In this document: piece after piece, positions 9,599 through 44,430 of the stretch | How the letters are laid out: the number at the start of each line of letters is the position of its first letter | Numbering within the stretch: position 1 is the stretch's first letter | Assembly (NCBI GenBank): GCA_022496805.1 | Contig: CM040104.1 | Location: forward strand, 8,655,650-8,719,649 | Direction of reading: 5' to 3' | Source of the DNA: Pohlia nutans | Taxonomy: Eukaryota > Streptophyta > Bryopsida > Bryales > Mniaceae | DNA length: 64,000 nt | Position numbers and translations under genes: made by a program | The notes under the pieces: generated by a model | What the model saw: only the letters and a program-made list of their open reading frames with translations | Databases searched by the model: none | Told to the model about the DNA's origin: nothing

Positions 9599-10199
9599 AC
9601 GCCAAGGCGCCACGAATAATGTCTACTTCATTGTCTAACAATAATGTCTCTTTAAATGTCTGCAAATAATGATTGCAAATATTGTTTGCTATAATTTCTG
9701 CTAAAATGTCTGTCAAACATCATTGTGAGATGAATATTCATATGCTTGTGTTTTATTCCAATGTTTATTGTCGTAATGAAGGTTGATCAAAATGTCGTTG
9801 CGGAGACCCAAATTGTTGTTCAGAAGCATGATACGCTCGAGACTCCCCCACTGTCTCCCGTTCCTGAGGTATTTATTCTTTTCTTTGCATTGTTTTAATT
9901 TTAACATTTTGGTGTGAGGTCCTATTATGTTAATGTAAATATGTTTATGATTTCGTTTGTGATCATTGTCGTAGGATTACGCTGCGGACAATGCAGCATT
10001 GTTGGTGGAGATTATTGATCTCAGTGCCTACGATAGTGTTGATCATATTTATTGTATCTGCGAGGACCCCGTTGTCGAGGTCGATAGCTTAGATGTACAT
10101 CGCTCGGCTCGACTTCCAGTACCTCGGTCTTTGTCTCCTCTCCTCCTATCTTTGTCTTCACCTTTTTTCTCTTCTGGTGATAGCACCTCTCCTCCAGTC

Positions 10200-10480
10200 T
10201 CACTTCCGAATTCCCCATTGGGATTTTGTCCCACCTCCCCCCTTGAGTTCGTTCCCTCCTCTCCTCCGGAGTATGTTCCTATTTCTCCCCTTGGGTTCAG
10301 TCCTACCTCTCCATCTGAGTCTGTTTCTTCTTTTCCCCCCGAGTATGTTCCTACCTCTTCGCCAGAGTATATTCCCACCTCTCCGCCGGAGTATGTTCCC
10401 ACCTCTCTGCCGAAGAATGTTCCTTCCTCTCCGGCGGAATATGTTCCTACCTCTCCGCCGGTTTATGTCCCTGCTTTTGT
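10200..10480 (+). repeat. Octad protein repeat resembling the Pol II CTD
   Basis: About twelve 24-bp units encode variants of [YF]-V-P-T-S-P-P-E, for example YVPTSPPE, FCPTSPLE, FSPTSPSE and YIPTSPPE. The arrangement of aromatic, Pro, Thr/Ser and Ser-Pro recalls the RNA polymerase II CTD heptad YSPTSPS but with period eight. It lies in exon 2 of the ParB-methyltransferase gene, upstream of the ParB-like region. Confidence 0.8.
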
Positions 10481-11237
10481 TTCTGCTCCTATTGAGTTTA
10501 TCCCCAATTTCCAGTTACTTCATTCCCTTCACTACCTCCCCTATTCGATCCTCATGACTTTGTTCTCCCGTATTCACGTTATCCGCTACTAGGTGTAGAC
10601 ATTTGTGACTATCGTGGACGCCGCTTTTTATCACGTAGACGGCGTGTTTGTAGACGGTTGGCCTAGCTGTATGCTGACATATTTGCCTTGAGCAAATCCA
10701 TATTATTTCTTAATTCTTCATATATTCTTGATTTTGTTTTTTCAGAATGCTCATCCTGTAATTGTCGAAGCATCAGATAATGAGGATCCTCAGCCAACGC
10801 TAGGAGAATCTGATGCTGATAATAGCGACGACGAAGACCAGGTTACTACAAATTTGACCTCGGTTCAGCTTCGCGCCATCAACACGCTGAATTTGGTAAC
10901 CACGATTGAACAGCTACGGCTCCTGCCAATCAAGGACTCCCGAATTCTGATTCCTCTTTGTCGAATGACCATCATGCCAATTGTGAGACCGACGTTGTCG
11001 TGTGACTTGACACTGCTTGAAGCTGACTTTGTCCATGGTTACCGCGAAGGAGCTGCAGTTTTCTACGTGTCCACGACAGACGAGCATGGCGTTGTCCATA
11101 CCTTCTCCGACGCGGAAAAGCAATCTTGGAATGCGCACTGGAGAGCTGCGGATCTACGTTTCGAGGAGTTCTTGCGCACCAAACCGTCCCTTCAACATCT
11201 GAGCAATGCAAAGTTGTTTGTCTGTGATGGCCACCAC

Positions 11238-11248
11238 CGTCTTCAGGC
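11238..11248 (+). repeat. Left target-site duplication of the 23-kb element
   Basis: The 11-bp sequence CGTCTTCAGGC at 11238-11248 is repeated at 34241-34251. In the gene frame it encodes RLQ and most of the following Ala codon, inside the ParB motif. MULE elements typically make 8-11 bp duplications. Confidence 0.85.
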
Positions 11249-11300
11249 GGGGAAAGCTCGTGCGCGAGCCTAGAGCGTAGAGCGGAGAGCGGAGAGCAGA
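11249..11300 (+). repeat. Left terminal inverted repeat of the 23-kb element
   Basis: It starts GGGGAAAGCTCGTGCGCGAG and continues with GAGCGGAGAGC repeats. It is the inverted counterpart of 34160-34240, imperfect in the outer 35 bases and nearly exact in the GAGAGCGG run. Confidence 0.75.
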
Positions 11301-13575: not shown

Positions 13576-13604
13576 CCAGGTGCTTAGTCCCGCCTCCTTC
13601 TCAG

Positions 13605-14629
13605 CCAATGCTTGTTATTCTTTCCCTAGCTTCTCCCTAGCCGCGTTCTCCTTCTTTGTCTCGCGCTTCTTCTTTTGTTTCGGAGGCTCAGGAGGCTCCT
13701 CATCCGACACATCGTCCGTGGCCTCAACTGCAGTCTCTCCACCGTCAATGGCATTTCGCCCTGCCAGCTCGGTAGAGGGCGTGAAATTTCAATTGCAGTC
13801 AAGATACCACGCTCCTGACTCTAGATGCTTCTTGTTGAATTTCTTGAGCTGATCGGAAGTATACATGCACAAGTCCGACCCCTTCTGAATCCAAGACTCG
13901 AAGTAAAGAGGAAGGGATTCTGCGGGAATGGCCTTCTTTGCCAGCAAGACACGAATGAAATACCTGTAGTTGACCACATGGAAGCGGGAGCATGTGAATT
14001 CGATCGACATACAGCACAGAGCGACAAATGACACAAACTTGCATATCGCCATCAGAATGAATGGTTTGAACAAATCTCAGTGCTTGGTACCCACCTATAG
14101 ACAACCCGTTTGACAGCTTGAGCTGTACCAGGGTACTCTTTGAAAATCGTCTTTTTGTGATAGAGCTTAGAATCCTTCGAGCCAAAGAATGATGAAAATG
14201 CTCTATCCCATAGTAGAATTCGCCAGCTTTCTACGAAGTCACCAGGCTTGCATAGTCCAGGGATTGACCAATCCACGGAGATCATCTTGTCCCTTATAAT
14301 GTCCTCCGTCATGCGTACAACTGCTTCCTCAACCTAATGAATCATGTTACAACTGTGAGCCGTCCAAATCTTGCAATCAAATGTGGAAGAGTTGAAAAAG
14401 CTTAGAAATGTACCTCCGCCCAAAATGAAGCTTTGTTTATCCAAGGATCCCACGTGTTGTCCTTGTCTTCTAGCATGGGAAAGCGATAGGCACGTCTAGC
14501 ATCTTCAGAGGAATTCCACCACCGTAGCCAACGCGCCTTGTACTTTGCATCACTAATAGAGGTGGCAATCTTCTGAAGCTTCTCAATCGTCATCTCTAGG
14601 GGAGAATTCTCACTGAAATGCCAATCAAT
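13605..14629 (-). pseudogene. ParB-methyltransferase family fragment (copy 3), middle exons
   Basis: Three minus-strand exons match the middle of the split gene in order. Exon 14629-14414 has EKLQKIATS and WLRWWNSSEDARRAYRFP (versus DKLQAIATS and WLMWWNSSEQTRVARKFP). An exon at about 14335-14095 has SWRILLWDRAF and KRVVYR. A final exon from about 13975 to 13605 has RYFIRVLLAKKAIP and ESGAWYLDCN, then an acidic and Lys/Glu-rich stretch ending at a stop near 13605. The ParB part and the methyltransferase part are both absent. Upstream sequence is lost at the 14700 insertion, whose far flank does not continue the gene. It lies inside the 23-kb element, near its left end and pointing outward. Confidence 0.7.
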
Positions 14630-14892
14630 CTGAACATGAAAATGTAAGTCATTGATTGGTGAGCAATGAAGATCACAACGTACGGGACGTGGAGGCAGTT
14701 GTCAAACCTCGTTTTCCCAAAAGCGGCTAGTTAGGGTTTCTAGGGCAACTAGGAGTAGTCTTTCCGCCATAAATAGGAGAAGTAATGGCCATAACGGCCC
14801 AGTCATTTATTTAGAGAGAGAGTGGCGTCCGTGCGTAGCCTAGTAGAATTACTGCAGGACTAGATAGACAGCGGATTCCGGTTGGAAACCGG

Positions 14893-16815
14893 ATGGGAGA
14901 CCAGATAGGTGAGGACGGGTCTCCGATGGACCCGGCCACGATCCAAGCATTGAAGTGGGCCGCTTTAAATTGGGCGACCCACTATTCATTCACTCTCTAC
15001 AGTTCCAGTCTTCCGCGCCAGCAGAATTTCGTGCTTCCGGATAGCAGTAGAGTTGATAGTGTGGGACCGGAGTTAGAGCAAAAGGAGCGCCAGAAACTTA
15101 GGCGCAGTTTGCGGAAGAGGAAGAGAGTGCGCCCGGAGTCTGTAGCAATGGCACGGGGAGGAGAGAGTTCTGCAGGAAACCGAATCATGGAGAAGAAGGT
15201 GGTTCCGGTAGTGCCCCAGCATCCGGGCGATTTTGAGATGCTACGCAACGACCTCGCCACCATGAAATGCGAGGAGCTCCTATACCGGAACTGGGACATC
15301 CAAGACACCGGACTACTGGCAGAAGTGCAGGGAAAGCCAGTGCCACCAGCCTTCCGGGGGAACAACATCCGGGGGAAGCGCGCGCATTGGACCTGGGAGC
15401 ACTGGAGCCGAATGTACAACCTTCCAGAGAGCAAGTACGGACTCGAGTCCGGCCAGAAGGGGGACTCGGATTGGGTGAAGGGGCGGTTCTCCGAGATTTC
15501 GGAGAAAGACGGATTCCAGGTGGAGCATTGCCGGATACCCCAGGAGAAGCGGCTGCTCCAATTCCTGGTGCCCATCCTCAGTCCGGATAAGCCCACCACT
15601 GTCACAATTAAGTTGGCGAAGGGTATCTTCTCCGTGCTGCATTACAAGAGGACGATCGGATGGGGAGTTGTAATCCAGGAAATCGTCAACCGGGAGGCCA
15701 TGAAGATAGGAGGATCAAAAGGTTGTCCCATTGCCCCATTCCTTTACCACATGTATGACAAGCACGGATGTCTCACGGACAGGGAGAAGGAAAAATTGGA
15801 GAAACAGCCCTTGCCTGCAGCAGACCGGAGCCCAGCCAAAGCGCGCAAACTCCGTCCGGATGAAAGGAGCCAACCGGAGGAGCGACGGAAGAAAAGGGAG
15901 GAACCGGATGGTGCCAGCCCGCGATCGGAGGAGCGCAGGAAGAGGAGAGAAGACCCGGAAGGAAGACAACCGGGAGGAAGAAGCCCACAAACGGAGGAAG
16001 GGCGAAAGGAGAGAACGGACCCGGTAGGGAACACGAGACCGGAAGGAGAGGGTCCCTCCGTACACGCCCGGGGACAGCAGCCGCAGAAGCGGAAGCGAGT
16101 CATCCGGAGTGACGAAGGGGAGGATTCGGACCTCCGGGAGATTTCTCCTCCCCGGGAGGACGCTTCACCTCTCAGGAAGAAGACCCCGACCCGGATGAAG
16201 ACCACTCCAGTGGACGGTAGAGGTAACCGTACCACCGGAGAACCCGGTCCCAGCAACCGCAGGGCAAATGCGCAGGAAAAAGGGAAACAGAAGGTGGGAG
16301 CAGGACTGGAAGCGGAGACTGGGGAGCAAAACCGGGAGGACGCACCAGACCAAAGGGAGGAGCCCACCCCTGCAGCAGAGCAAAACCGGGAGGCACGACC
16401 GGACGTACCAATCCTCGCGAGAGCGGACGTCATGCTCGGGCCAATCCGGACAGCATTGAACATGGTGGAGGAGCAGTACACTCCACTCTGCAGCGCAGTG
16501 AGGGGAATTGGGAACGTCCTGAGGAGCACGGACGTGAAGGAGTTCCCGGAGATGGTAAGGCAGATCAGGCGGGATGGAAACCGGGCTCGCAAGGAGGCCA
16601 CCGGAACGACCCAGCTCCTGCGGGAACAGAAGAGGGAGCTGAGGCAAGCAAAGCGGACTATACGGATGATGGAGCAACAGAACCGGACCTGCTTCGAGAC
16701 GGTGTTCCGGTTGTTCCGACCGGATGGTGAAGTACAGATCAAGGTAAGGCTGTACAAAAAGATGATGAGCGATTCCGAGGAGGAAGGGGTGGAACGGGTA
16801 AGGAGCATCGTGTAG
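14893..16815 (+). CDS. Element-encoded 640-aa protein, plant-transposon-protein-like
   Basis: ATG 14893 follows a GGTTGGAAACCGG hairpin leader shared by all three copies. Residues about 100-320 form a globular domain (WTWEHWSRMYNLPESKYG, WGVVIQEIVNREAMKIGG, APFLYHMYDKHGCLTDRE) reminiscent of the 'putative plant transposon protein' domain found in plant LTR elements. Residues 320-500 are Arg/Glu/Pro-rich and disordered, and 520-620 is a charged coiled-coil-like region. The frame continues past TAG 16813 as KYAARVEEALVEF to 17163, and copy 2 has Lys in place of the stop, so the ancestral protein was about 755 residues. No gag, protease, reverse transcriptase or integrase motif is present. Function is unknown. 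Confidence 0.7.
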   Translation: MGDQIGEDGSPMDPATIQALKWAALNWATHYSFTLYSSSLPRQQNFVLPDSSRVDSVGPELEQKERQKLRRSLRKRKRVRPESVAMARGGESSAGNRIMEKKVVPVVPQHPGDFEMLRNDLATMKCEELLYRNWDIQDTGLLAEVQGKPVPPAFRGNNIRGKRAHWTWEHWSRMYNLPESKYGLESGQKGDSDWVKGRFSEISEKDGFQVEHCRIPQEKRLLQFLVPILSPDKPTTVTIKLAKGIFSVLHYKRTIGWGVVIQEIVNREAMKIGGSKGCPIAPFLYHMYDKHGCLTDREKEKLEKQPLPAADRSPAKARKLRPDERSQPEERRKKREEPDGASPRSEERRKRREDPEGRQPGGRSPQTEEGRKERTDPVGNTRPEGEGPSVHARGQQPQKRKRVIRSDEGEDSDLREISPPREDASPLRKKTPTRMKTTPVDGRGNRTTGEPGPSNRRANAQEKGKQKVGAGLEAETGEQNREDAPDQREEPTPAAEQNREARPDVPILARADVMLGPIRTALNMVEEQYTPLCSAVRGIGNVLRSTDVKEFPEMVRQIRRDGNRARKEATGTTQLLREQKRELRQAKRTIRMMEQQNRTCFETVFRLFRPDGEVQIKVRLYKKMMSDSEEEGVERVRSIV

Positions 16816-17223
16816 AAGTATGCTGCCCGGGTGGAAGAGGCGCTGGTGGAGTTCCGGGCGCTGGTAGCCGAGGTGCTGACGAGGTGCTCACCCGTACCGG
16901 AACCGGAAGCGGGGTAGACCAGCAACAGGGATGGGAGAGTGCCCCTGTCCGGAAGTGAGATGCAGGAGAACTTCCGGTTGTCCGATGAGGCGCCCCAGGC
17001 AGGAGATTTGGACCGGTTGCTGGGAGTGAGAAGCTCCACCCCGGATCAGACCTCCCAAATGATGGGCGAGATGGAGCCAATTCAGGCCACCGAGCCAAGA
17101 GAAGCAGGTCTGGCTGGGTTTCTGAATCCGGAAGGGGAGATGGCGGAGACGAATGCCCAATAGGGTGAGGATGGAAGGCCAGAGGGTGGACCAGGAGGCA
17201 ACCCGGACGGTCAACCAGTTTAG

Positions 17224-19598: not shown

Positions 19599-22131
19599 AT
19601 GGCATCCACTGCTGATTGCGATCATTCCTTGGAGACTGCAATCCTTTCAGCGTATGGCTCAAGTGCTCCTGTCTCATTCCCAGTGAATGGCGAGGGAATT
19701 GCTGTTGTGTCCAATAAACATCTCAGTATGCGATTTCATTTTGACGAATCTATATGTCGAGAAGAACATCTTTGATGATTCTAGCCAGTCGTGCCCGTCT
19801 CACACCATTATTCAACAGCCACACGAGAGCCCGGATCTAAGTCGGCGATGGAAGCTTGGACTTGGAAAGTATGATGTCTATGGTCTGCCAAAAACGAAGG
19901 GCTGTGGTATACCACATCCGTCATCTGGATGCACAATCCAGACTCCTCTTCTTAGGAATGTCAAAGTTGACCATGATCTAGATGTGGAATGCACTCCCCT
20001 TTTTGGATCATCCATGTCCGTTAAGCTAGAGTCGGAATCAACTTTGTACATTGCCCTCTCTAGCGATTCGTCTGATGCAGACACGGTCATTGAACGTCCT
20101 CCCATTCACACTCTTGACCCTCCGTCCTCAAAGTCTTATGCCGCTCATAGCCTTGAATCGGCCACTCCTAGATTTGAATCGATCAACATCAACAAGTATC
20201 TTATCCAAGTTGAAGAAACTAGCTACTCTTCCTGGGAAGAAGAACGTGCTCAAGAAACTTGATTACGCCACGATCACCACGATCAAGGTTGACTATCTTC
20301 CTCCCAAATTTGACGGTGACGTAGTGTACGAGTTTCCTGCCATCACGCATTACGCATCTCATACAAACGCAAGAACTTTGCATGGTATGGATAAGAGGTA
20401 CGATGGCCATGTCTGGACTAGAACTATGACAACTAATATTTCCAATCCTCTGGGTTTGTCGTTCCAATCCTCGGTCTGTGTAGGCCACTTGCAGTGTCGC
20501 AACAAGGAATGTGAGTACTTGAAGCGTGCCAATCGCACCTCTCCATTCAATGATACGGAGTTCGAAGGCTGTACGTGGAAGCCATTCATTGTAGACGAAT
20601 CACCTCCAAAGGACTCCACTTTGGTCTGCAAAGTCTGCAAAGAGCCTCCCACTTGTGTGAACAATTGTAGCGCTAAAATATTCTACGTGCATAGTGGGCC
20701 GAACGTCACAAGGGCTTGTATTCATCTTGGACATCACAAGCACCCGATGAAGGTTGGAGACTACCGAGATACCAAGTCCAAGATCAACACTGTCATCGGG
20801 GAGCAAATCGAGAGAACACCATCCGCTACGAAGGGTGCAGTCGTTCTCGAGGCCAGCAAAGAACTTTTAGGTGAGTATCTTCTACGCAGTGAAGACGAAC
20901 CACCCAAAACTCTTAGTTTGGAAGATCTCGTGCCGGTTCTTGACAAGTTCAAGGACATGGGCTCTCCCAGCATTAGAAACAAAGTTGTCACATTCAGATA
21001 CCTCAGGAGGTATGGTGTCATGGACAGTATCACCAAACTTAGAGGACTTAGTAATTGGGCATTCGTCCAAAAAAACATGTTCCATGGACAAGGTGAGGAC
21101 TCTAACAAGGTATTCATTTTCAAAATGTCCGAAATGGGTCCAGGTAGTGGTGTGGATTTGGTCAAGAGGATGCAGACGGGAGGAGATCTTGAGAGCTGTT
21201 GGATCATGTTTGACCATGTCAAACGTGTCAAACATTGGACTACAATGGGTTGCCATGTTTACGACTCTACGTACTGTCGTGTCATGACCATTGCATGCTG
21301 TGACATGCAATCGGAAGACACAGATGCTCACATTGTCTTCTGGAAGAACCTGAATGCCGTCATGGAGAGACATGACGTTCCCAATCCACAATTCATGGGC
21401 TTCATGGCGGATAGTGCACAAGCCAATTGGAATGCACTCAGGATCATCTACGGAAATGGGAATCCCAAAGATCCAATGGTGGACCGAGAGAGGACGTGCT
21501 TCTTTTATTGGTCACAGTCCTTCGAAAAGCATAACAACCAGTACATCGCCGAAGAACTTCGAGAACAGCACAAGCGCCTTTGCATGCAATATAGAGATTC
21601 CACGACCATGGCTGAGGCGGATACGAGATACCTAGCCATCAGGGTTTGCTGGCTGTCTTCTGGAGCTGCATCAGAGACAGCATTGAGACACTTGGATCTT
21701 TGGCTAGCCTTCTGGCACTTCCGATATCGACAATGGGGTGGCTTCATGCAGTTAGTGAGTATGCATTGCTCTTGCAATCTCTTTCTAAAGCACTGCTTTC
21801 TAATCGTCTCTACGTGACATTTCTTGTGATGGACTTCTACAGAACCTTGACGAAGAGGCGTTAGCCGACATGCCGTCCTGCAACCTTGCCGAGACTGTGC
21901 ACAACAAGTGGCTTCAAGCGTCTGGCAACAAAGGTAATTGTCAAACCTCGTTTTCCCAAAAGCGGCTAGTTAGGGTTTCTAGGGCAACTAGGAGTAGTCT
22001 TTCCGCCATAAATAGGAGAAGTAATGGCCATAACGGCCCAGTAATTTATTTGGAGAGAGAGCGGCGTCCGTGCGCAGCCTAGTAGAATTACTGCAGGACT
22101 AGATAGACAGCAGATCCCGGTTGGAAACCGG

Positions 22132-24386
22132 ATGGGCGACCGGATAGATGAGGACGGGTCTCCGATGGACCCGGCCACGATCCGAGCATTGAAGTGGGCC
22201 GCTTTAAATTGGGCGACCCACTGTTCATTCTCTCTCTACAGTTCCAGTCTTCCGTGCTTCCGGATAGCAATAGAGTTGATAGTGTGGGACCGGAGTTAGA
22301 GCAAAAGGAGCGCCAGAAACTTAGGCGCAGTTCGCGGAAGAGGAAGAGAGTACGTCCGGAGTCTGTAGCAATGGCACGGGGAGGAGAGAGTGCTGCAGGA
22401 AACCGAATCACGGAGAAGAAGGTGATTCCGGTAGTGCCCCAGCATCCGGGCGACTTTGAGATGTTGCGCCGCGACCTCGCGACCATGCAATGCGAGGAAC
22501 CCCTGTACCGGAACAGGGATATCTAGGACACTGGAATACTGGCGGAAGTGCAAGGGAAGCCAGTGCCGCCTGCCTTTTGGGAGAACTACATCCGGGGGAA
22601 GCGCACGCATTGGACCTGGGAGCACTAGAGCCAGGCATACAACCTTTCGGACTGCGAGTACGGACTCGAGTCTGGCCAGAAAGGAGATTCGGAATGGGTG
22701 CAGGAATGGTTCTCCGAGATCTCTGAGAAGGACGGATTCCGGGTGGACCATTGCCGAAATCCCCGGGAGAAGCGGCTGCTCCAATTTCTGGTATCCATCC
22801 TCAGCCCGGATAAGCCCACCACCGTCACGATCAAATTGGCAAAGGGTATCTTCTCCGCGCTCCTTTATAAAAGGATAATCAGGTGGGGAGTAGTGATACA
22901 TGAAATTGTAAACCGGGAGGCTATGAAGATCGGAGGAGCAAAAGGTTTTCCCATTACTCCATTCCTTTACCACCTGTATGATAAGCACGGATGTCTCACG
23001 GATCGGGAGAAGGCGAAATTGGAGAAACCAATCCAGCCTCCAGCCGACCGGAGTCCGGGCAAAAAGCGCAAACACCGTCCGGATGAAAGGAGCCAACCGG
23101 AGGAGCGAAGGAAGAGACGGGAGAAACCGGGAGGTACCAGTCCGCGACCGGAGGAGCGCAGGAAGAGGAGAGAAGACCCGGAAGAAAGACAATCGGGAGG
23201 AAGAAGCCTACTAGCGGAGGAAGGGCGAAAGGAAAGGACGGAACCGGTAGAGAACGCAAGACCGGAAGGGGAGGGTCCCGCCGTGCACGCCCGGGGACAG
23301 CAGCCGCAGAAACGGAAGCGGTTCATCCGGAGTGACGAAGGGGAGGATTCGGACCTCCGGGAGATTTCTCCTCCCCGGGAGGATGCTTCACCCCTCCGGA
23401 AGAAGACCTCGATCCGGATGAAGACCACTCGAGTGGACAATAGAGGTGACCGTAACACTGTAGAAGCCGGTCCCAGCAACCGGAGGGCAAGTGCGCAGGA
23501 AAAGGGGAAGCAGAAGGTAGGAGCAGGACCGGAAACGGAGGCTGGGGAGCGAAACCGGGAGGACGCACCAGGCCGAAGAGAGGAGCCCACCCCTGCAGCA
23601 GAGCCAAACCGGGAGGCACGACCGGACGTACCGATTCTCGCGAGAGCGGACGTCATGCTCGGGCCAATCCGGACGGCATTGGAGATGGTGGAGGAGCAGT
23701 ACACTCCACTCTACAGCGCGGTGAGGGGAATTGGGAACGTCCTCCAGAGCACGGACGTGAAGGAGTTCCCGGAAATAGTCAAGCAAATCCGGCGGGAGGG
23801 AATCCGGGCTCGCAAGGAGGCCAGCGGAGTAACCCAGCTCGTGCGGGAACAGAGAAAGGAGCTGCGGCGGGCGAAGCGGGCTATCCGGACCAGGGAACAA
23901 CAGGACCGGACCTGTTTCGAGACGGTGTCCCAGTTATTCCAACCGGATGGGGAAGTACAGACCAAGGCGCGGCTGTACGATGAGCTGATGAGTGATTCCG
24001 AGTAGGAAGACGCAGACTGGGTAAAGAGCATCGTGAAGAAGTATGCTGCCCGAGTGGAAGAGGCACTGGTGGAGTTCCGGGCACTGGCAGCAGAGGTGCT
24101 GATAAGGTGTTCAAGCATGCCTGAACCGGAAGTGGTGGAGACCAGCCACAGGGATGGGAGGGCCCATCTGTCCGGAAGTGAGATGCAGGGGAAATTCCGG
24201 TTGTCTGACGAGGCACCCCAGGCAGGAGAGATGGACCGGTTGCTGGGAGGGAGAGTCCCCACCCCGGATCAGAGCTCCCGGATGATGGGTGAGATGGAGC
24301 CGGTTCAGACCATCGAGCCAGGAGAAGCAAGTCTGGCCGGGTTTCTGAATCCGGAAGGAGAGATGGCGGAGACGGATGCCCAATAG
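22132..24386 (+). pseudogene. Element-encoded protein, copy 2, with stop codons
   Basis: This is a homologue of the ORF at 14893, starting at ATG 22132. In-frame stops occur at about 22523 (copy 1 has CAA), 22627 (copy 1 has TGG) and 24003 (copy 1 has GAG). Otherwise the frame largely holds through the globular domain, the Arg/Glu-rich region and the coiled coil to TAG 24384. It retains Lys where copy 1 has its terminal stop, and so shows the longer original C-terminus, ending FLNPEGEMAETDAQ. Confidence 0.75.
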
Positions 24387-24944
24387 GGTGTGGATGGAAG
24401 GCCAGAGGGTGGGCCAGGAGGCGACCCGGACGGTCAACCGGGTGGCGCGTAATGGCGCGAACCGGTAAGCGAACGGCAGGAGAACTCGGTGAGCAAGGAA
24501 GCGGATTGGAGGGATCGGATCGGGAACAGCTGCTCGGGAGCGGCTGAGTAGTTAGGGTTCCGGGTTTGATGGATCCGGCCTTGTGGGCCCTTGTGCAGTA
24601 GGGTAGGACTCCGTTTGGGAGTTAGGGTGTTAGGATTCTAATGTAAGTTGTAGTGTAGGAAGAGGACTGAATCGTGGGATAGTCCCCCGGTTTTTCCGGA
24701 TCCCGGGTTTTTAGGATCTGCGGGTTCCCCGGATCTGGTCGGCTTTGTGTTTTCTTTTTATCCAGGGATGTTCCTCATTCCTGGGGTCTTCTTGTGTACC
24801 ATTTTTCTCTTTGTAAATAATCATAGGCATACTCTTCTACGAACCGGATTGTTTGTATGTGTGTGTGTGGTTATTGCTTGAGATAAGTGGGCCAATTAGC
24901 CCCTTGGTGACCGGAAGGATTGATCGGGTTGGTCCGTGCTTGGT

Positions 24945-29054: not shown

Positions 29055-29089
29055 CGCTTACCTACAGAACGACAATGGTGGATGAGAAG

Positions 29090-30215: not shown

Positions 30216-31544
30216 TTATAATTTGAAACTGTAGCTATCTTCAATTGAGTCCCAAAGCGGAGGCTCGTCTGCATCATCAAAGTGTTCCTGCAGTGCAATC
30301 GATAACTCCTCCGGAATGACCTCGTTCACCTCGATGTTGCAAGGGTTCGGTAGGCCTAGCAACTCACATATGTAATGTGACCACATCAGCCGCCACACCA
30401 TCGGGTCCCTCGGAGAGCCGTCCCAAATATTACACGGTACTCCATACCTGTCTAGAACATCTTTGTCCAATAGCATGACAGCCAGATCTATCCAATGAGT
30501 TTTGCAATGTAGAAATTCCCACAGCCACAATTCCACTACTCCCTCAACGGAGGCAATAGGGTACTTCATCTGGAATGTGAACCCATTCCTAGTGACTTCG
30601 GGATACACTGATATGTCCCTACCGCCTAACCCTTTCCATTCATTGTCCGACAAACAATCGTCAATCTGTCAAACTTGTTGTGATGAGTTCAACAAGCCGT
30701 AAGCTCTGTACTGACCAGCAGAAAGCATCCAGTAGTATCCTTCCGGGTCGTCCCCCCTCGTCTGTAGCACACCTAATTCCACGGACCCGTCCCTACTACG
30801 GACTTCTAGCTCCACCATTATTGATGATGCTACTAAGCCAAAACGAACTGCGAGATCTAGGGCCGAAACTCGAGCATACTTATCCCAACCCATTTCAACT
30901 ACCATCATCAGGAATTTCCGACCCCACTGATTCTGCACTGATTCAGTGCGTTTATCATTAAACACTGATTCCGCACGTCATACGTGCATTTAGAAGTGTC
31001 GTTACGGTACGGAAGTGACATGCATTACTAGAGTGTCGATGCAGTGTCTTTTCAATGATTATCAAAAAAGTGTTGTTTCCGCACGAAAGTCGTGCTTGAC
31101 GGAATCCGTGCGTTAATCGTGTATCTACATTACATAGCTAATAAGACACGGATAACATGCGGTTTTAGTTAATGCGGATTCAGTATCGTATACGTATCAT
31201 ATTAATGCCATTTGCTATATTCGTGCGATTTCAGTATCTATTATAATGCAAATTATTTTCGTACGACATCCGTGTACAATATTTTAATATATTTTTGGAA
31301 TCTTTTGGAATCTTTTGGAATATTTTAAAATATTTTATATTATTTTGGAATATGTTGGAATATTCCAAGAATCTTCTTTAAATTATACTTACAGTTTAAT
31401 TTCCCAAAACATTTTTAGATTTACATTTATAGAGTTTAGAAGCAATACACATTAAAATTTCAAAGAAATAACATTTTATATTTTTAGAATTCAAATTTGG
31501 TATCATTGGTTATCATTGTACTTTTCATCATAGGAGCAAAAAAA

Positions 31545-32240: not shown

Positions 32241-32284
32241 TCATTCTTTTATAATTATCAAAAGAGTTCCTTTATATGCATGAA

Positions 32285-34159: not shown

Positions 34160-34240
34160 GCTCTCCGCTCTCCATTTTCCGCTCTGCTCTCCGCTCTCCG
34201 CTCACGCTCTCCCATCCACCGCTCGCACGGTAGCCGCCCT
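34160..34240 (-). repeat. Right terminal inverted repeat of the 23-kb element
   Basis: Repeated GCTCTCCGCTCTCC blocks lead to CGCTCGCACGGTAGCCGCCC at the outer end. Read in reverse this matches the sequence at 1964-2030 especially well and the left end at 11249-11300 in the GAGCGG run. Confidence 0.8.
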
Positions 34241-36668
34241 CGTCTTCAGGCTTGGATGAAAGTCATCTCTCGCGACCACTCGCTAGAGGTGAAATGGCAT
34301 TATTCGGTTGACGCCATCGTCTTGGATACGAAAGGCCGTATTGGGGAGGTTATGCATGTTATGCACGAGATCAACAAGTACGTATATTCTAAAGCAATTC
34401 TAGTCCTTTTTTATTATCTCAGTTTTTCCTTCACAACAATTTGTAAAACGTTATCTTCTCTTGTTGCAGATCAACAGAGAACTCACTTGTCAAGACGAAC
34501 TTGGTACACGATCTGTATCAAGTTCGTAAGTACGAAATGATGACAGTCGAGCAGTTGAAGGGTATCATCAGTCTTGCAGACTACGAACGTGCAAAGACCT
34601 ATATTCCTCAATCGTGGTTTACTCTCCCGGCTGATACTTTAACCACTCTCATATTTCGTGTGAGTCAATCTATTCGCCTCAATCCTTTGAATTCTTCCTC
34701 TCTTATGATTTTCATATATTCGTTCATTTACTGACTTTCCTTTGCGGTGCAGCATGACATTGCAAAGGCTGGCGATACCGAGCTTCGAAGTTATTGTGAG
34801 CACACTCCCGACGAAGACATCACAGAGGATGGCATGAGGGACGCTATGTTGAAGGGCGTCAAAGACAAGACGGAGAAGTTGAAATCAAAGCTGTGCAAAA
34901 TGACTGCAGTTGCTAATCCTCTTTATGGAGACAGATTCTTGCACGAGGTACTTACTTGTCATTTATTTCATTGTCGCATTCCTTTGATCAATGTTCAAAC
35001 CTAATTAATGCGAATTCTGCAGGTCGAAAGACACTACCCTCGCAATTCTCTCAAACCAGACATGCAACTTGACAAGCTGCAAGCCATTGCAACTTCTAAC
35101 GCAAGCCCGGATAGCAAGGTTCAGTGGTTGATGTGGTGGAACAGTTCAGAACAAACCCGGGTTGCGAGAAAGTTCCCCACCAAAACCACCAAGGATATAT
35201 TGAGTAATTGGCTAGACAAGGCCTGTTGGTATGCGGCAGTGAGTATATATTTTCTTCCTCCAGCTGTTAATTTTCAAGATTCAATATCTTTTGTACTAAC
35301 TCTTCTCACTTTGATCACCGCAGTTCATGGAAGCTGCCATCAACACCTTCAGGACCATTGCAGACAAAGATGGGCTTGTAATTAATTACGAGGTAGCTAA
35401 CAAAATTGACGTTTACCTTGAGAATTGGAGAATGAAGCTATGGGACATTGGCTTCCCAGATGTCTTCAAGAGAAACGGCTTCAAAAAAGACGACAACTTC
35501 ACTAAACACGCTGATTCGACCTTCTTGGTCAATCGTGTCATATATCGGTTCGTTACTAAATCTCTCCCAATTTCCACGCTTTGATTCATTTGTTCTTACT
35601 TCATTGATTTCATGTGTTTGATTACCTCTTTTTGTGCAGGTACTTCATGTTTGAGCTGGTTCCAAAAAAAGCTATCACCAAGGATGTTGTACCCCCTTTC
35701 TTGGCCACATGGAGTGATCTGTTTAGTGACACTTGTATGTTTAGCCCTCATCAGATGAAGATTTGGACATCGAATCATCTTCGTAGCGCTGGGTGGTACT
35801 TGGAGTGTGGTCTCAACGCCGTACCGGACGTCGAACGGGCACTTTTTGACTACGCTGAGAATGCGAAGGAAATCATCCTCCTTGACAGTGCCGATGGCTC
35901 GATGGACGAGGTTACGAAAGCCAAAGCGATAGCAAAGATACATGCCCAAGATCTCAAGAAGAAGGAGCAGATGGCGGCCCTTGCTGAGAAACGACTTGCT
36001 AAAGAAGAAGCAAAACGGATTAAAGAAGCCGAGAGGAAACAAGCGAAGAATGAGAAGACCAGATTGAAACGGGCCGAAAAGAACAAAGTTGGCATCACGA
36101 ACGATTCCACGGTGGTTGACGAGGCTCTAAGCAATCGAGCACCAAAGGACGCTGACAAGACTCAGAAACTCCCTCTGATCTCTTCCACGCAAGAACGACT
36201 CACGCAAGGTTCTGTTGTTCATGAGGTTGCATCAGCCTCTCACTCAACGAACGACGAATTCTTTCTGATTTTGTCCTTTTCATCTCTCTTGCCGGAGGAC
36301 AAACCGCCACTTCCTGCCTTCAAAGACATCGTGGCATTTTTGGAGAAGGTACTGCTAGTCTCTCAACATTGCTATCTTGTCTTATCTATCTTAATTTCCC
36401 CTAGTCCTCTAACGCAGTTGCCTCCATGTCTTAAATTCTGATACAGCATAGTGGAAACCGGGATTGAGTGTTCAAAGGTCGCCGCAATGCAAAAGCTACC
36501 ATTGACTTCATATTGGTGGACTACCCGGAGGATCTGCGTGTCTCGAGTGTATCGGACCCTTCCGACGAGATCCAACGTTCGAACAAATTGGATCCTGCTA
36601 CCTTGGATGCCATTTGTGACTTCGCACATCACCACATTCATGACGGTGGGGCCATAGTCGTCATCCAC
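34241..36668 (+). pseudogene. ParB-methyltransferase gene copy 1, middle part (six exons plus half)
   Basis: Exons: 34241-34377, 34470-34659, 34753-34947, 35023-35238, 35324-35547, 35640-36348, then 36447 to the LTR insertion at 36669. Introns are 75-99 bp with good GT/AG sites and the frame runs through all of them. It starts at the second copy of the target duplication, completing the ParB motif as RLQAWMKV. A long helical region follows (WLMWWNSSEQTRVARKFP, GWYLECGLN), then a Lys/Glu-rich coiled coil (35900-36100). Last comes the start of the methyltransferase domain, with FILVDYPED at 36507-36533 in the position of the DPPY catalytic motif and HDGGAIVVIH at the break. One in-frame TGA at 36465-36467 probably replaced a Trp codon. 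Confidence 0.75.
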
Positions 36669-37083
36669 TGTTAACCGTAAATTAGGAGTTATCGGTAGGT
36701 CTACCGATCTGAGTCTTACCTGGGTAATTTTCCAAGTTACCCCAGTAGGTAGATCTAGGAAACACTTTTCTACCGATGTGACCTAACTGTCAGATCTGGT
36801 TGTACTATGGTATAAAAGCAATAGAGCCAACCTCATTGGCACGCCTCATTTTCCTAGATAACTGATTTCTTGCTAGATCGATTCTTTTCTGATTTTTATG
36901 CCTACCAAGCAGCTTTCTGTGTATCATTGTATGCTCTGATCAGTCTATCTCTCCTCGGTTTTGTGATAACCGACCTAGTTTTTAGTATTTGATTATCCAT
37001 TCTGTTAAATTCCTTTTCCTCAGTAGTTATCAAACCTCCTGGTACTGATTACCGAGTAGGTCCCTTACCAAGAGGAGCTACCA
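36669..37083 (+). repeat. 5' LTR
   Basis: 415 bp, TGTT...ACCA. A TATA box (GTATAAAAG) lies at 36810-36818. The sequence immediately inside starts TTTGGCGACC, with a TGG typical of a tRNA primer-binding site; the donor tRNA is not identified. Confidence 0.93.
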
Positions 37084-37254
37084 TTTGGCGACCATCTAGT
37101 GTTCGAATTCTAGAACTCCATTGCTTAAAAACACGGAGTTACCGATCCCGGTACTCTATTATCGACTAGCATCTGTGTGACACCACGCCTTTTTTCTGTC
37201 CTACCAATATCATCCAGTCCGGTTGTCCAAAACTCCAATAGACTAGACTTTCCC

Positions 37255-38600
37255 ATGGCCCGGCGCCACACTAGATCTGCAGGACCGCCGCCCGAGATCG
37301 ACCTCGAGGCTCTCACGATTTCCAACACTTGCATGCACTGGAGCTTCCAGGATTTGCTACCGTCATCGATGTTCCGAGCTCCCTCAACAGCACTCATCCG
37401 ACACAACAGCCTCCACCTTCACTCACACAAGATGAATTACCGACCCCGCGAGAACTCCAAACTGCAAGACATCCGCACTCATCCACTTGGCCGAGGCCAT
37501 CTTCCGACCCGGTACTCCACAACCCAGCAACTACCGGAGAGAACTTACAGTTCACCGACGCAGAACGCGAACGGTTTCGTGCCCAGGCATTTCTACAGTC
37601 CTCGGCCATCCAAGACCGACTTCAACAACTCCTGCCAGAAGACGCAACGGATCAAGAACTTCTCGCAACCCTCGAACCGACTCCTCCATTGGATCTTGAT
37701 TTAGCTGCGTCACGGTTTTACCTGCCCAATTTACGTTTACGCTAGTTTCGACAAGATCAAGGACGTACCCCATCAATGCATCACACGGTGCGCCTACAAC
37801 CGATTCCAGGACACCAATACCCGGTACAGCAGCAATTTTTTGGATATCCTCCTCCACAACACTACCACCAGGTTCGTCCTAGACCTCCTATTCGGTTTTG
37901 CACGTTCTGTAGCTATACCGATCACCCTTCTATTTCCTGTCCCTATAATTTTCCCCAACCACGCCGCATTATGGCCACCGGAGTACCGACCCCAACCTAC
38001 CGATCTGCCGGCGACCCAAGTGTTCAACCCGCGGGTCGACGTCCTACCTCGACCGCTCGAAAGCGGTACCGTATCCTGAGTATAAAACCAGTAAGTGCCC
38101 CGAGACACATTGCCGTAAGTTTGAATCTGCTATTAGATTAAATGGCGAAACGGAAAACATGGTCCATTTGGAATTATTCGGTAATTCTCTCACCGAGAAA
38201 GAGTCGAATTGGTTTGCATACCATAGACGGATACATCCTACTAATACATTGCAAGAGGTATTTATCGCATTCAAAAGGCGCTACCGAACCATCAAAACAG
38301 ACGACTAAACATATATCCAATTTCGTACAATCAATCAGCAACCGAAGGAATCTGTTGATGATTACGCCGAACGTCTCCAGCAACTAGCAGAAAATCTAAC
38401 AGTACCTCTGGATGATATGTTCATGTTGAGCAATTTTCGCTCCGGCTTATTAGAATATCTGCAGGTAGCCATTGTAGGACTCCAACGACACACATTTTCC
38501 GAAGCTATGGACTCGGCACGCACCACAGAAGAAGGTCTACCCAAATCACGACAACCGACTCTTACCTCGACTAGTATCGAAGACAACCCCTGACGTAACC
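37255..38600 (+). pseudogene. Gag region of the LTR element, frame-broken
   Basis: An ATG at 37255 (MARRHTRSAGPPPE) opens a frame that shifts by about 37330 to one with DAERERFRAQAFLQSSAIQD and later PNLRLR and a stop near 37743. A further segment around 38300-38600 carries retrotransposon gag-like sequence (DDYAERLQQLAENL). Several stops and shifts mean no intact capsid is made. It lies directly upstream of the zinc-knuckle/protease frame. Confidence 0.6.
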
Positions 38601-38623
38601 TGAAGTGTACCGGCTGCGGTCGT

Positions 38624-40159
38624 ATGGGCCATGAATGGGGGACATGTTACCGCAACCTGGCCAGTGACTACGGGAAGAAAACCGATACGGCTTCCGTCCA
38701 TCAGATCCAAACTCAGCCAGCACCAACTCCGGTAAGTACCGAAAACCGCCGTACTTCTCGTAGTATAACCCCGGTACAACGGTACCCATGCAATGTATGT
38801 GGATCACTTAAACATCCGGGACATCGTTGTCCACTTCTATTGGATGAGGATGTTAAAAAAGCCATCCAAAACAAACTACCTACCCACTCAGGATCCTCGG
38901 TAGTCATTACCGATGTCCATACAGTAGATGTCTCTCATATCGGCCCTCGCACTCGGAGTCAGACCCAACATCTAGACTCGGTAGTTCCGAACAGTCCCAC
39001 ACCAACTACCGAAGCACCTCGTCCAACCGAGGCGCTCGATTGGCGGGCCCAACAGCAGCTGCGCGAAGAAATGATAAAGACGGTCCGTGAACTACAAGAC
39101 CTCTCGCCATTGGAGCCACCATCACCCCGCGTCACTCCAACCGCTCCGACCAGCACCATCGATTTCTGCGAAACTATTCTTCAACAAATTGAATCACAAA
39201 CAATCCAGGTCAGTCTAAAAAACCTTATGACTATAGCACCTAGTATTACCAAACATATTCACCGCCGTCTCGGTCAGATAACCCCGTCAACCATCCCAGT
39301 TACCGAGCAACCAACAGTGGCAGTCCATTCGGTAGTAGTGATCGACCGTCACATGCCAATCATCTCAGCCAAAATTGGGAGTCATCAATTACATGATGTC
39401 CTGTTGGATGGAGGATCGGGAGTAAATGTCATCACCGAAACCGAGCGACGCAGACTTGGGCTACCGAACCCAACACCGGCACCTTTTAAATTAAGAATGG
39501 CAGATAGTTCCCTCGTCCAACCTCTGGACTTGCTCAGGGACATCACGATCTTCATTCACGGTATTCCCTATATCATTATTCTCACCGTTATTTCTTGCAA
39601 GGATGTCAATTCGGCTTATACATTGTTGCTCGGTAGACCATGGCTCAGGGACGCCCGAGTCATTCACGATTGGGCTAACGACAACATACAGATCATGGGT
39701 AATGGTACCATCTGAACAGTACGGATTAACCGGGAGTTAGGTTTTGAAACCATAGCTCCCGATGCTCTCGTTTGCTACAACTACGTGGAAGGCCTTACCG
39801 ACGAAGAAAAACTTATTCTACTCGAAGTAGAAGAGTTTCTCCTCCCAATTGGAACATTGGCTATTGACGACTTGTGCCAGGGAAACACTACCGAGCTTCC
39901 CTTACCAACCATAACCCATACGGAAGGCAACATGCCTGTTGATGAAATACCGATTCAGGATACCGAGTCGTACCTAGATACCAAACCAATATTGTTTTCG
40001 ACCCGACCTACCGTCCTAATACGACCACCGACCTCGGTAACCAAACACAGCAGCACAGCCACCACCGACACTGTCGCTACGACATACCGAACCGACCACC
40101 TCAGTATCACCGAGGCAAAAACCGTACCGAGCGCCAGGTTCGGCAATACACAACCCTAA
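38624..40159 (+). pseudogene. Nucleocapsid zinc knuckles and aspartic protease
   Basis: Zinc knuckles of the C-x2-C-x4-H-x4-C type appear as CTGCGRMGHEWGTC (near 38606-38650) and CNVCGSLKHPGHRC (near 38791-38832). The retropepsin follows: VLLDGGSGVNVI, with the D-G-G variant seen in plant Ty3 elements, and LLLGRPWL near 39630. A TGA at 39713 interrupts the frame, which continues as INRELGF ... VEGLTDEEKLILLEVEEF to 40159. That tail precedes reverse transcriptase in complete plant Ty3 elements; here the reverse transcriptase is missing. Confidence 0.8.
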
Positions 40160-40517
40160 CGCGCCGCCACTCTCCCAACCTAGTTCGCACCCGCCCACTC
40201 CATTTCTCTTTATTCCACCACCCTATTCATTCATTTCCTTGTCCACCTCTTCTTCTATTTATCCTTCCCTCAACATGCTTTCTTCCGCCACGGTTCTCTC
40301 CCCCTCCCGGTTAGCTCTCCGCCTCCGCCCTCCATCTCCGTCTCCCTCTCTACTTCCCCGGCCGCCACGACCCGTAGCTACAGTTCACCGCCACCGACAC
40401 AATCGACCGAGGCGAATAGCGCGGATTAGAGTTCTTCCTCTTTCTTGCTTGATAGCCGCTTGTTCTTCCACCTCCCGAGAGAAAAGGCGAAGAACTCTCC
40501 CTGTGCATTTTTTCAGG

Positions 40518-42431
40518 ATGACAGGACAGAAGAAAACCGCGGTCGACTGTCGCCGTGGAAGCTCCTCCTGCAACAACCAGGTAGGACCAGACTGGAAAGA
40601 GTTCACGTGCCTACCGCTCAAACACATGGTTGCCTGGCAAGCATTCGCCGCCACCCATCCGGACGAACGCGCGTGGATTCACCGAGTCGGCCTCGAGGGC
40701 TTCGTCAACCTACCGTGGGGACAAGAAATCCGCAAGGATGTTGTGGAGAATTTTATCAACACCGCGCACAGCACCAAACAGCAGTCGATCATCGGAGAAG
40801 CGATCGGGAAGATCTACATTATCACCTCGGAAGACATCACCATCATCCTCCGACTACCGACTGGCACGACTACCGAAGTCAACTACAGCCCGGATCCGGA
40901 GAAGTTCAAATACTGGAGCATCGGTCCCAACGGCCATGAAGCCCTTCACCGACCCAATACCGATGGCTACAGTGTTTCGTTGGGGCCGGCGGAGTTACGA
41001 CCTCGGAAGTATGGTTTACTGCAAGCAATCTACTTTAAGAGGAAGCAGTCCTATACGTCCACGCAGTGCCTCCGTGAGATACACACGGTCGATGAACTCT
41101 CCCTTACAGATACCGGAGCCTCTTGGAACTGGACTCTCTTCATGCTCGGACAGCTTCAGAAGGACCTCGCCGTCATCATGGGAGGCCATTCTCCACTGTG
41201 TCTCTGAGCAGAAATCTGGGATATGCTTCTCCGAGGACAAGAACTAGCCGCCACCACAACCAAACCAGCAGCACCGGTACCCGTTCCGAAAACGACCACA
41301 ACAGCAGCACCGGTACCCGTCCTGAAAACGACCACAACAGCAGCACCGGTACCCGTCCTGAAAACGACCACAACAACAGCACCGGTACCAGTAGCAAGCA
41401 CTGCCACCCGTACTCCGCCTTCCCCAGCACCAGGACGCATGCATCGGTACAAACTACCGAAGAAGCGGACATCACTGCCCCTCTTCTCTACGTTTCCCGA
41501 CTTAGGGATCTCGTCTCGACTTCGCAGTCGCATCACACCGGCACCCACAACTTCCAAACGCAAGAACCGACTCGACCTTACTGACGCCCTAAACGAATTT
41601 GGCAGGAATCCTCGACCCCGAACCGAGCGTGGCGGCTGTTCCTCCTCTACGCACCGATCCTCTCAACGCACTCCGTCTCCACCACCGATTCCGTCACCAA
41701 ATCGCTCATCCTCGACACCACCACAGATCATTGGCGCGAATCCACCACCACAGCCACTGAACCCGCCACTCCAGACTTCAGGTATACTCACTACCGAGGC
41801 CACTCAAACTACCAGTTTCCAAGCTCCTGTGCAAATGGCACCACCCCTGACCTTGGTTCCCCTCGCAATGGAGCACACCGACTCTCCGAATGTTCGGCTC
41901 CATGGACCTCGGAACTTGTTTCAGAATGTCTGCTTCCTTCAACGCACAACAGACACGCTGTCTGAGGTACTTACAGAGGTCTAGACACAAGTTCAACAAC
42001 TCACCATCTCCGACCCGGCAGCACATTAGCGCCAACTTGAGAACGCCCAAAAGCGTATTACTGAGCTGGAGGGTCAACTCGACACCTCCCAAACCGAAGC
42101 ACAACAGCATGCTACCGACCTCGCTGGAATTTGAGAGGACCGTGAACGTGCACGTATCGAAGTCGCCGACCTAACCTAGCGGTTACAAGCCCAGGTAATT
42201 TTCTTGAACACTGCCCAAACGGAACGGGAGCAGCTCAGAGCCGATACAGCGGAACACAGGATCACCATCCACACTCTCAGGCAGGCTTTCCAGACCGAGA
42301 CAGACCTCCGCGCATCCATAACTACCGAACTGCAACACCTAATTACCGAATACGACTCGTTGCACAACCAAGCACAAGAGACCGAGACGGCACTTGACAA
42401 CACCTACCGGATGCTCAACCAATACCGATGA
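40518..42431 (+). pseudogene. Second ORF of the LTR element: plant-mobile-like domain plus coiled coil
   Basis: One frame runs from ATG 40518 to TGA 42429 with stops at 41205, 41982, 42027, 42132 and 42177 but no frameshift. The first 230 codons encode a globular domain (FVNLPWGQEIRKDVVENF, ITSEDITIILRLPTG) resembling domains carried downstream of gag/pol in plant retroelements. A Thr/Pro-Val repeat follows (TTTAAPVPV, 41250-41400), then a Pro/Ser region and a coiled coil (ENAQKRITELEGQL). The order globular, disordered, coiled coil matches the ORF of the giant LTR at 14893, although the sequences do not align by eye. Function unknown. Confidence 0.6.
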
Positions 42432-42804
42432 GCACATCCAGATTTCGTTCCACAACCCCCATCACCGGACTCTACCGACACCAAAATTGTGAACCCCGCC
42501 ATGACGGAAAACGACCCCATCCGAGCTCCTCCACTACCGACGGAGCGCTTTGACTCCCTCTTTAGGGATTCATTTGATGGCCATGAATTACTCAGCCCCC
42601 CCACGCAAGGTAATATCAGTGCACCAGGCACCAGGACACCCAGCCATCCTCGGCACAACTCGCCGAATATCGAGGGGCCTACCGGATCTGAGGACGAAAG
42701 ATTCCGGGTTTCTCGCACCATCCCTAGGCAAACCGGTCCCACTGCGTAGAAATCCCTCCGGTATATCACTGTTTAAAACAAGTTCCAGGTGTGAACTTGG
42801 TTTA

Positions 42805-42816
42805 GTGGGGGGATAG
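42805..42816 (+). promoter_or_regulatory. Polypurine tract
   Basis: The G-rich run GTGGGGGGATAG directly precedes the 3' LTR, as expected for plus-strand priming in LTR retroelements. Confidence 0.85.
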
Positions 42817-43231
42817 TGTTGACCGTAAATTAGGAGTTATCGGTAGGTCTACCGATCTGAGTCTTACCTGGGTAATTTTCCAAGTTACCCCAGTAGGTAG
42901 ATCTAGGAAACACTTTTCTACCGATGTGACCTAACTGTCAGATCTGGTTGTGCTAGGGTATAAAAGCAATAGAGCCAACCTCATTGGCACGCCTCATTTT
43001 CCTAGATAACTGATTTCTTGCTAGATCGATTCTTTTCTGATTTTTATGCCTACCGAGCAGCTTTCTGTGTATCATTGTATGCTCTGATCAGTCTATCTCT
43101 CCTCGGTTTTGTGATAACCGACCTAGTTTTTAGTATTTGATTATCCATTCTGTTAAATTCCTTTTCCTCGGTAGTTATCAAACCTCCCGGTACTGATTAC
43201 CGAGTAGGTCCCTTACCAAGAGGAGCTACCA
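42817..43231 (+). repeat. 3' LTR
   Basis: 415 bp, nearly identical to the 5' LTR, followed by the TCCAC duplication. Confidence 0.93.
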
Positions 43232-44430
43232 TCCACCCTTACGACGTGGTGGTGAAGTCTTCCGTACTCGGATACGCGGAGAGTTATGGGTTCATGGAGT
43301 GGAAAAACTGGGTTTGCATGAATCGCTTGCACTTGTGTCATCCGAGTAAGCAGGAGTTGACGGTATGTTTGTCTATGACCTTTACCTCAACTTGTCCATG
43401 TGTCATCACTCTCAATATAATTGCCTTGGCTTCTGTGTTTCTAGTTTTCATTGTCTTGTGATGTTACAGACGCAGAGATTCGTTGTCTACCTTTTAGTGA
43501 GGAGGGAGGGTTCTACCTTCCAATTCAATCCGGTGTCGTCCATGAACGAGTTCGGAGTGGACCCTGGTTCGGACGAGTGGCTGCAGAACTACACCACCAA
43601 GATTGACCAAGCTATGAACGGCTCTAAGCCCTGGCGTGGACCCAGAGAGAAGAGCAAAGGCTTTTGGCAAGTTCTCATCGAGGCTTGTTCCAAGCTAGGA
43701 GACATTGTTTTAGACTGCCACGCCATGACTGGTGAATCCCTACCACCCTATATAGCTTTGAATCTTTTACATTAAATAGACGTGATTTTGTCTATCTATT
43801 TATAGTACGTTTTTCATAAACATTGTATGTGTATTCCAAGCGCTTCCATTCATGCTTGCAGGAATGTCAATCGCCACCTTGTGACTTTAGAGGAGGACAA
43901 AGCCATCTTTGATGCACTCATCGCTCCTCTGGCGCGTGCGAAGGCTACCCCTCCATCGCCACAGCCTTTCGGATCGAAGCGTTCTCAGGATCCAGACAAC
44001 ATGGAGACAGCAGGTCAAGAGAAGACGTCAGAGTAAGTAAGTTTGATTTTAATTCAAATTCCCTAGCTCCATGACTCTAAACTGATTTCGTGCAGCTGAA
44101 TGTACTAATGTTATCCATATGTGTTATAGCTACTCAATTGGACTGAGCCCTCCTCGACACAAGCCTTTTTTTGCTGCCCGGAGTTTCTTTCCAAGCCCCC
44201 CTAAACCGTTTGAGCTCCCGGTGTACGTGGAGCCACTAGCTAGGGCATTCGCAGAGCATAGTCTAGATGACGTGGACATGACTGAGGGAGTAGCTAATAC
44301 CGGCGTTTCACAGTTCATGGACGTAGAGGCTGCGGAGTCTTCTTGCACCCATAGTTCTAGCTCTTTTTCTAGCTCTTTTTCTAGAACATCATCTTCTACA
44401 CATGAGGACTCCTCTGATGATTCCTTGTAG
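43232..44430 (+). pseudogene. ParB-methyltransferase gene copy 1, 3' part (methyltransferase motif I and tail)
   Basis: The split exon continues after the TCCAC duplication to 43362. Exon 43470-43731 ends in GDIVLDCHAMTG, exon 43862-44032 carries NRHLVTLEEDKAIFDAL, and exon 44130-44430 is an acidic Ser-rich tail ending in TAG. Motif IV (upstream) before motif I (here) is the order of beta-class amino-methyltransferases, in which a C-terminal VLDPF-x-GSG is followed by G-R-x-x-x-G-x-E. The expected FxGxG is altered (HAMTG), and joining 43731 to 43862 at the canonical sites puts the next exon out of frame, so one base has been lost or gained or a splice site has moved. Probably nonfunctional in this copy. 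Confidence 0.7.

Follow-up and report, generated by a model that had tools for sequence, protein, structure and literature searches.

A gene predicted to combine ParB and amino-methyltransferase folds in a giant DNA transposon of Pohlia nutans

The window, i.e. the whole stretch of 64,000 nucleotides analysed here, lies on contig CM040104.1 of the Pohlia nutans assembly GCA_022496805.1 (C20:8655650-8719649; 697,796,988 bases in 332 contigs). It is best explained as containing a disrupted copy of a giant, probably MULE-type DNA transposon, in which a second gene, divergent from the transposase, codes for a protein with a ParB fold followed by a beta-class amino-methyltransferase fold (ParB-MTase). 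This explanation is held with high confidence as a whole, and the identity of element and protein with very high confidence. It is carried by the folds of modelled relatives, the gene architecture, the linkage to a transposase, the complete mobile units found elsewhere in the genome and the purifying selection acting on the gene. The class is known, though barely studied; the carrier type, the scale, the fold-level evidence, the purifying selection and a uniform, non-canonical motif IV are new here.

The transposon and its ParB-MTase gene

The outer element and its genes are listed below. Its length is about 13.3 kb, once two later insertions are arithmetically subtracted, and its homology to C6, a copy located elsewhere in the genome, ends at 44831. 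The minus strand codes for the transposase and open reading frame (ORF) X, the plus strand for the ParB-MTase protein.

1960-44831: outer transposon, in which the ParB-MTase gene resides; its left end (CAACGACGCTACCGTGCG) and its right end (...TAGCACCCCCG) both match elements elsewhere in the genome
2453..5461, minus strand: pieces of the outer transposase (ORFs 2453-3889, 3882-5069 and 4991-5461), with 84-93% identity in six other copies
6009-6551, minus strand: conserved ORF X, without functional assignment; found by tblastn also in the inner element and in 6 of 7 other copies
~9777-9869 and 9975-10530, plus strand: two 5' exons with an octad repeat (...SPPEYVPT...), only probably part of the protein
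10746-11249, plus strand: ParB-fold exon, ending in DGHHRLQA, where an insertion sits
34250..35547, plus strand: remainder of the ParB exon and four helical exons (34250-34377, 34470-34659, 34753-34947, 35023-35238, 35324-35547), with identical aligned borders in five other copies
35640-36348, plus strand: exon coding for a helical region, then a coiled coil
36447-36668, plus strand: exon with methyltransferase motif IV (VDYPED) and an in-frame stop close to its start
43232-43362 and 43470-43731, plus strand: methyltransferase core exons, with PWRGPREKS and motif I (VLDCHAMT)
43840-44430, plus strand: final exons, with the end of motif I, RHLVTLEED, a serine-rich tail and the stop

A single gene, running from about 9777 to 44430 and cut by two later transposable-element insertions, codes in order for the octad-repeat segment (probably included), the ParB-fold exon, the helical exons, the coiled coil and the C-terminal methyltransferase fold. 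All the parts named by the original prediction, including the ParB-like DG-x-HR segment, were found in these exons, in that order and on the plus strand. Its gene layout had to be revised on other points: the two gaps are transposable-element insertions and not parts of the gene, the copy is broken, and two further paralogues are present in the window. Long introns were considered for the two gaps and rejected, as both correspond to insertions flanked by duplications and absent from C6, which aligns across both sites without the inserts. The splice acceptor before 43840 is lost; an alternative exon start at 43862 was rejected, since relatives have AG directly before GCGCTTCC at the place of 43840. 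Because of the in-frame stop and the lost acceptor, the window copy is a pseudogene. The octad repeat corresponds to a 24-bp tandem array of 9.2 copies (10251-10472), which we take to resemble the RNA polymerase II tail in style. 5' exon 1 was detected in 6 of 7 other copies (not in C18), while the identity of 5' exon 2 is 90% in C9 and 74-76% in six copies.

Seven copies, picked from the top of the list of ParB-exon hits in the genome, were examined. The same left end is found in six of them and the same right end in five; units having both ends measure 14.5-18.5 kb, and target duplications of 9-10 bp surround C18, C19, C23a and C23b. Identity to C23b, evaluated over shared pieces larger than 300 bases, ranges between 78 and 97%, and reaches 95-97% in the long ones. 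The transposase of C18 is a 738-aa open frame, reaching the end of the stretch examined. Exon borders line up across five copies; over the 924 codons leading from ParB to motif I, C23a contains no stop, C18, C19 and C23b one each, and C6 two, and at least one splice site is changed in each of these five except C18. In its ParB part, the copy labelled C9 (L010-L011, L031) is 93-94% identical to that of the window; its homology is lost inside the coiled-coil exon, and a different transposase is found downstream, on the minus strand.

Linkage of the two genes was evaluated genome-wide on the best 150 of 1375 ParB-exon candidates and the best 116 of 2246 transposase candidates. Among the best 53 transposase matches, a cut chosen after identities were seen to drop, a divergent ParB exon lies within 25 kb of 40; none has a ParB exon in the other orientation, and 13 have none at all. 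In 1000 random shifts the mean was 0.42 and the maximum 3. The ParB-MTase gene is a transposon gene, standing beside the transposase in units with terminal repeats and target-site duplications, and, with the two genes encoded on opposite strands, it has the placement of the accessory class of ParB and amino-methyltransferase genes.

The gene is under purifying selection. When the window copy was compared with C18, dN/dS ranged from 0.098 to 0.159 in all seven exon pieces tested, which include one methyltransferase exon but not the motif IV exon; exons B1, B7, C1, C3 and C4 of the window and the two 5' exons were left out. The methyltransferase exon (43470-43727) gave 0.159, near the 0.103 of the ParB exon. 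Among four close copies (C19 being excluded for a 3-base gap) values of 0.29-0.40 were obtained in six comparisons. Such selection is the pattern expected of an accessory gene needed by an active lineage.

The transposon is probably of the MULE kind because of its 9-11 bp target duplications and a SWIM-like finger. The duplication range of MULEs is 8-11 bp (PMC6446971), and the values found fall within it: 9-10 bp in the four copies named above and 11 bp in the inner element described below, with none around C6.

Predicted folds and relatives of the protein

When the ParB exons of two copies in the window were made into a profile, 412 of 540 candidate proteins matched it at E <= 0.1, so that the observation is not due to chance. 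The best 120 of the 412 were listed and used. A stretch of the form [DE][GR][NHKS][HY]R is present in 118 of the 120 (two of them reading DRNHR) and missing from the other two. Ten of the 120 were dropped, having no motif or being too short; the other 110 have a DG-HR-type motif plus at least 45 residues beyond it. An INK-like triplet forms the exact end in 85 of the 110, and the window exon ends at that point. Alignment A2 took 59 of the 110, and, as these were picked from motif-matching proteins, the invariance of the motif there is partly due to choice. Their weak matches were to DUF1015 (3 members), DUF6551 (1) and the ParB-like PHROG 1033 (2).

The structure predicted for the ParB exon of a relative (P0001) matched ParB, Noc, PadC and KorB in rows 1-13, followed mainly by SerK, sulfiredoxin and SbnI. 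By this model, the exon is assigned the ParB/sulfiredoxin (ParB-CTPase) fold, as a predicted ParB N-terminal domain. The exon family also contains a candidate G-x-x-R, the nucleotide-contacting motif of the ParB-CTPase fold. The arginine of this motif matters, according to PMC12704722.

For the C-terminal half, the model of another relative (P0124) retrieved SAM-dependent amino-methyltransferases, by title, in 50 of the 50 VIA rows shown (SAM, S-adenosylmethionine). No other family stood clearly above unrelated rows in the VIA listings, where absence proves nothing. Motif IV precedes motif I in the alignment, and this half is predicted to have the fold of a beta-class amino-methyltransferase, with the motifs in the order IV, then I. 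Both halves thus received, from models of relatives, the folds named by the original prediction.

Motif IV was analyzed in 17 rows: five copies from this genome, which are close to one another, 11 proteins and L001, to which one of the proteins, P0121, is 98% identical. Its place was fixed by strand order and by alignment, and not by a residue-level structure alignment; alignment A5 was made without P0131 and one L001 exon. The motif reads D-x-P-E in 16 rows and D-x-H-E in one (VDYPED in the window), its D and E being kept in all 17. Motif I approximates LD[LIC][TH]A[SMG]TG in most rows reaching it, with exceptions such as LIAGTG, ASTC and ASTS; in the few longer rows (L001, P0124, the window and the genome copies) an acidic, LEED-like segment comes after it. 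SAM binding is plausible, since motif I and this segment are kept. True DNA methylation is possible, though with D-x-P-E in motif IV the odds lean against it.

L001 contains a ParB exon, helical exons and one exon of 548 residues, spanning the helical region to motif I. When 7997 candidates were scored with the latter, it matched 11 proteins at E <= 0.1, including one with 98% identity. The sequence itself (L001:1-4691, contig CADCWO010000058.1) is labelled as a Synechococcales metagenome-assembled genome, yet bears an intron-containing ParB-MTase gene of eukaryotic type; the contig is most likely a contaminant or mis-binned.

The spliced central exons, used as a protein query, found nothing at E <= 0.01 among 7998 scored candidates, with length limits that excluded single-exon ORFs. 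No relative was confirmed in viral contigs, and a tblastn search of 50,697 phage records with one ParB and one methyltransferase piece of the window stayed empty at E <= 1. Sequence profiles run against PDB gave one unrelated match in one search and, in another, mainly a coiled-coil stretch and no methyltransferase; the transposase had no meaningful match there. The literature reached through a KDZ lead was not about ParB.

Alternative explanations and possible role

Several results weigh against the proposed explanation. As to the folds, both structure models are of relatives and not of the window copy. Foldseek gave no ParB match at E <= 0.001 for the P0001 model, while the methyltransferase model has an overall pLDDT of 62, and row P0124 contains a translated intron. 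The Pfam model ParBc (PF02195) matched none of the 59 members, and PF01555 was listed at E <= 1 for 4 of 12 members, the best at 19.8 bits against a cut-off of 26.7. The expected [DNS]PP[YFW] is found at the motif IV place in none of the 17 rows, the aromatic residue being missing from all. As to the element, no Pfam MULE model matches either the inner or the outer transposase; SWIM matches only the inner one, at E 0.01, below the cut-off, and the SWIM scan of the outer kind was empty, its Cys/His pattern being seen by eye only. The duplication flanking the outer element in the window is imperfect (7/9, by eye), C6 has both ends without a duplication, C3 has no right end and C9 neither end. 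Each of the five copies has a stop, a changed splice site or both. Finally, among the remaining 63 listed transposase matches, three have a divergent ParB exon, one has it in the other orientation and 59 have none; some transposase carriers may be without the ParB-MTase gene, judging from the matches listed, in which 59 of 63 does not amount to absence.

The original prediction regarded the gene as domesticated; on such a reading, a host family derived from phage or bacteria would later have been hit by transposons. Introns are indeed conserved, selection is purifying and the window copy was truly cut by transposon insertions. This origin is nevertheless very improbable, as the 150 copies scored among 1375 candidates are spread over many contigs, a good part of them with stops, and copies lie within units sharing their ends, with 9-10-bp duplications and an adjoining transposase, to which linkage was found for 40 of the best 53 and 43 of the 116 listed matches. 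Two other proposals are compatible with the identity of element and protein as a transposon-borne ParB-MTase. There is an even chance that the methyltransferase fold is catalytically dead, comparable to METTL14, an inactive partner, and that the transposon uses the protein as a platform which binds DNA or SAM and acts, for instance, in transposition or in choosing targets rather than in methylation. D-x-[PH]-E replaces the expected motif in 17 of 17 rows, and changing SPPY to APPA abolished the activity of the rotifer N4CMT (PMC8885841); on the other hand D and E are present in every row, features of motif I and like those of motif II persist, and methyltransferase exon 43470-43727, with a dN/dS of 0.159, comes close to the ParB exon with its 0.103, in a comparison lying outside the motif IV exon. 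A transposition co-factor for integration, similar to maize mudrB and devoid of any epigenetic role, would agree with the divergent linkage to the transposase and with the extra ORF frequent in MULEs, mudrB being apparently needed for integration (PMC6446971); a methyltransferase fold exceeds what a mere co-factor would seem to need, and this reading is considered unlikely.

The statement that no eukaryotic family of this kind had been described was incorrect. The closest relative in kind is the protein of the Ectocarpus transposon Sola1-1 (Sola1-1_Ec32), 1104 aa long, with a ParB and an N4/N6-methyltransferase domain (PMC12477816). As here, a ParB-like part precedes the DNA methyltransferase, and the gene and the transposase of this giant transposon of 21.5 kb lie on opposite strands. 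The likeness is by description only, and the carrier differs, being a Sola-1 element, whereas another transposase kind, with 9-11-bp duplications, is found here. Relatives in green and red algal transposons are cited in the same paper, where Iyer 2011 and a Bostrychia paper also appear as citations; in the view of its authors, proteins of this class may attach to the transposon encoding them and alter it epigenetically. The same two domains are fused in phage ParB-CTPase and N6_N4 methyltransferase proteins (PMC12704722); these are phage proteins, and for eukaryotes sulfiredoxin is named there as the commonest representative. The bdelloid N4CMT differs in being a host gene with an SPPY motif and a chromodomain, and no ParB domain is mentioned in the passages considered. 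DNA methyltransferases are also carried by transposons of eukaryotes in dinoflagellates and charophytes (PMC5890265), but they are of the C5-cytosine type and reside in retrotransposons. By analogy, the closest functional precedent would be VANC, a transposon-encoded anti-silencing protein of the Arabidopsis VANDAL elements (PMC5735166), likewise encoded besides the transposase. The VANC abstract names neither a ParB nor a methyltransferase domain, and reports that VANC causes loss of DNA methylation throughout its elements, whereas an epigenetic role is only inferred here.

The transposon-borne ParB-MTase protein may help its element to resist or use host DNA marking. We infer nucleotide use, a DNA target, methylation and anti-silencing along the following lines. 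Bacterial ParB is a nucleotide-switched DNA clamp; the ParB domain would hold the protein on the DNA of the element itself, possibly with terminal repeats of the GAGCGGAGAGC type as its site. The methyltransferase-fold domain, with its motif-I and motif-II-like features, could then mark this DNA (6mA or 4mC) or block host modification, and such marking or shielding would protect the element from silencing or distinguish its DNA from that of the host. The chances of an anti-silencing or self-marking role are put at slightly less than even. A private chromatin mark, comparable to the marking of a bacterial centromere by ParB, in which the clamp would load at the end repeats and spread, tied to a methyltransferase fold with a new D-x-P-E catalytic motif, is a rather doubtful extension of this role.

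In the open literature searched, ParB-methyltransferase proteins of eukaryotic transposons receive only brief treatment, in PMC12477816 and its citations. A multi-copy family under selection, with near-identical complete units, offers a tractable system for transposon DNA self-marking and for asking whether a ParB clamp works on chromatin, while the uniform D-x-P-E motif poses a direct question of enzymology.

Inserted elements and other features of the window

The two insertions, the two further paralogues of the ParB-MTase gene and their positions are as follows.

11249-34240: younger inner transposon, inside the ParB exon; 11-bp flanking repeats CGTCTTCAGGC at 11238 and 34241
13723-14665, minus strand: fragment of a ParB-MTase paralogue (copy 2) within the inner element; tblastn E 3e-16 and 9e-10
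36669-43231: long terminal repeat (LTR) retrotransposon within the coding sequence of the methyltransferase; flanked by a 5-bp duplication (TCCAC), with 98.6% identity between its LTRs
53566-55602, minus strand: third ParB-MTase paralogue, decayed; tblastn E 3e-18 (ParB part) and 2e-16 (helical part)

The inner element contains a transposase (20030-27318), whose identity to the outer one is 53% in the N part and 37% in the C part. ORF X is located in it at 30219-30668, on the minus strand; with respect to the transposase, it is oriented differently in the outer and the inner element. A repeated element with a long charged ORF is present in three copies of 88-97% identity (14693-17216, 21932-24439 and 59391-61123), one of which begins beside the end of ParB-MTase copy 2. 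The segment 52061-52235 is a probable solo or partial LTR, sharing 81-83% identity with that of the inserted retrotransposon.

Rfam and tRNA scans gave nothing useful. A run of long ORFs occupies 46566-50078 on the plus strand; Pfam scans of three of them gave a weak match to Paxillin in one (E 0.0018, below the cut-off) and nothing in the other two. Near the window end, on the minus strand, 62597-63460 contains an ORF resembling an NLI-interacting-factor-like phosphatase (Pfam NIF, E 3e-14).
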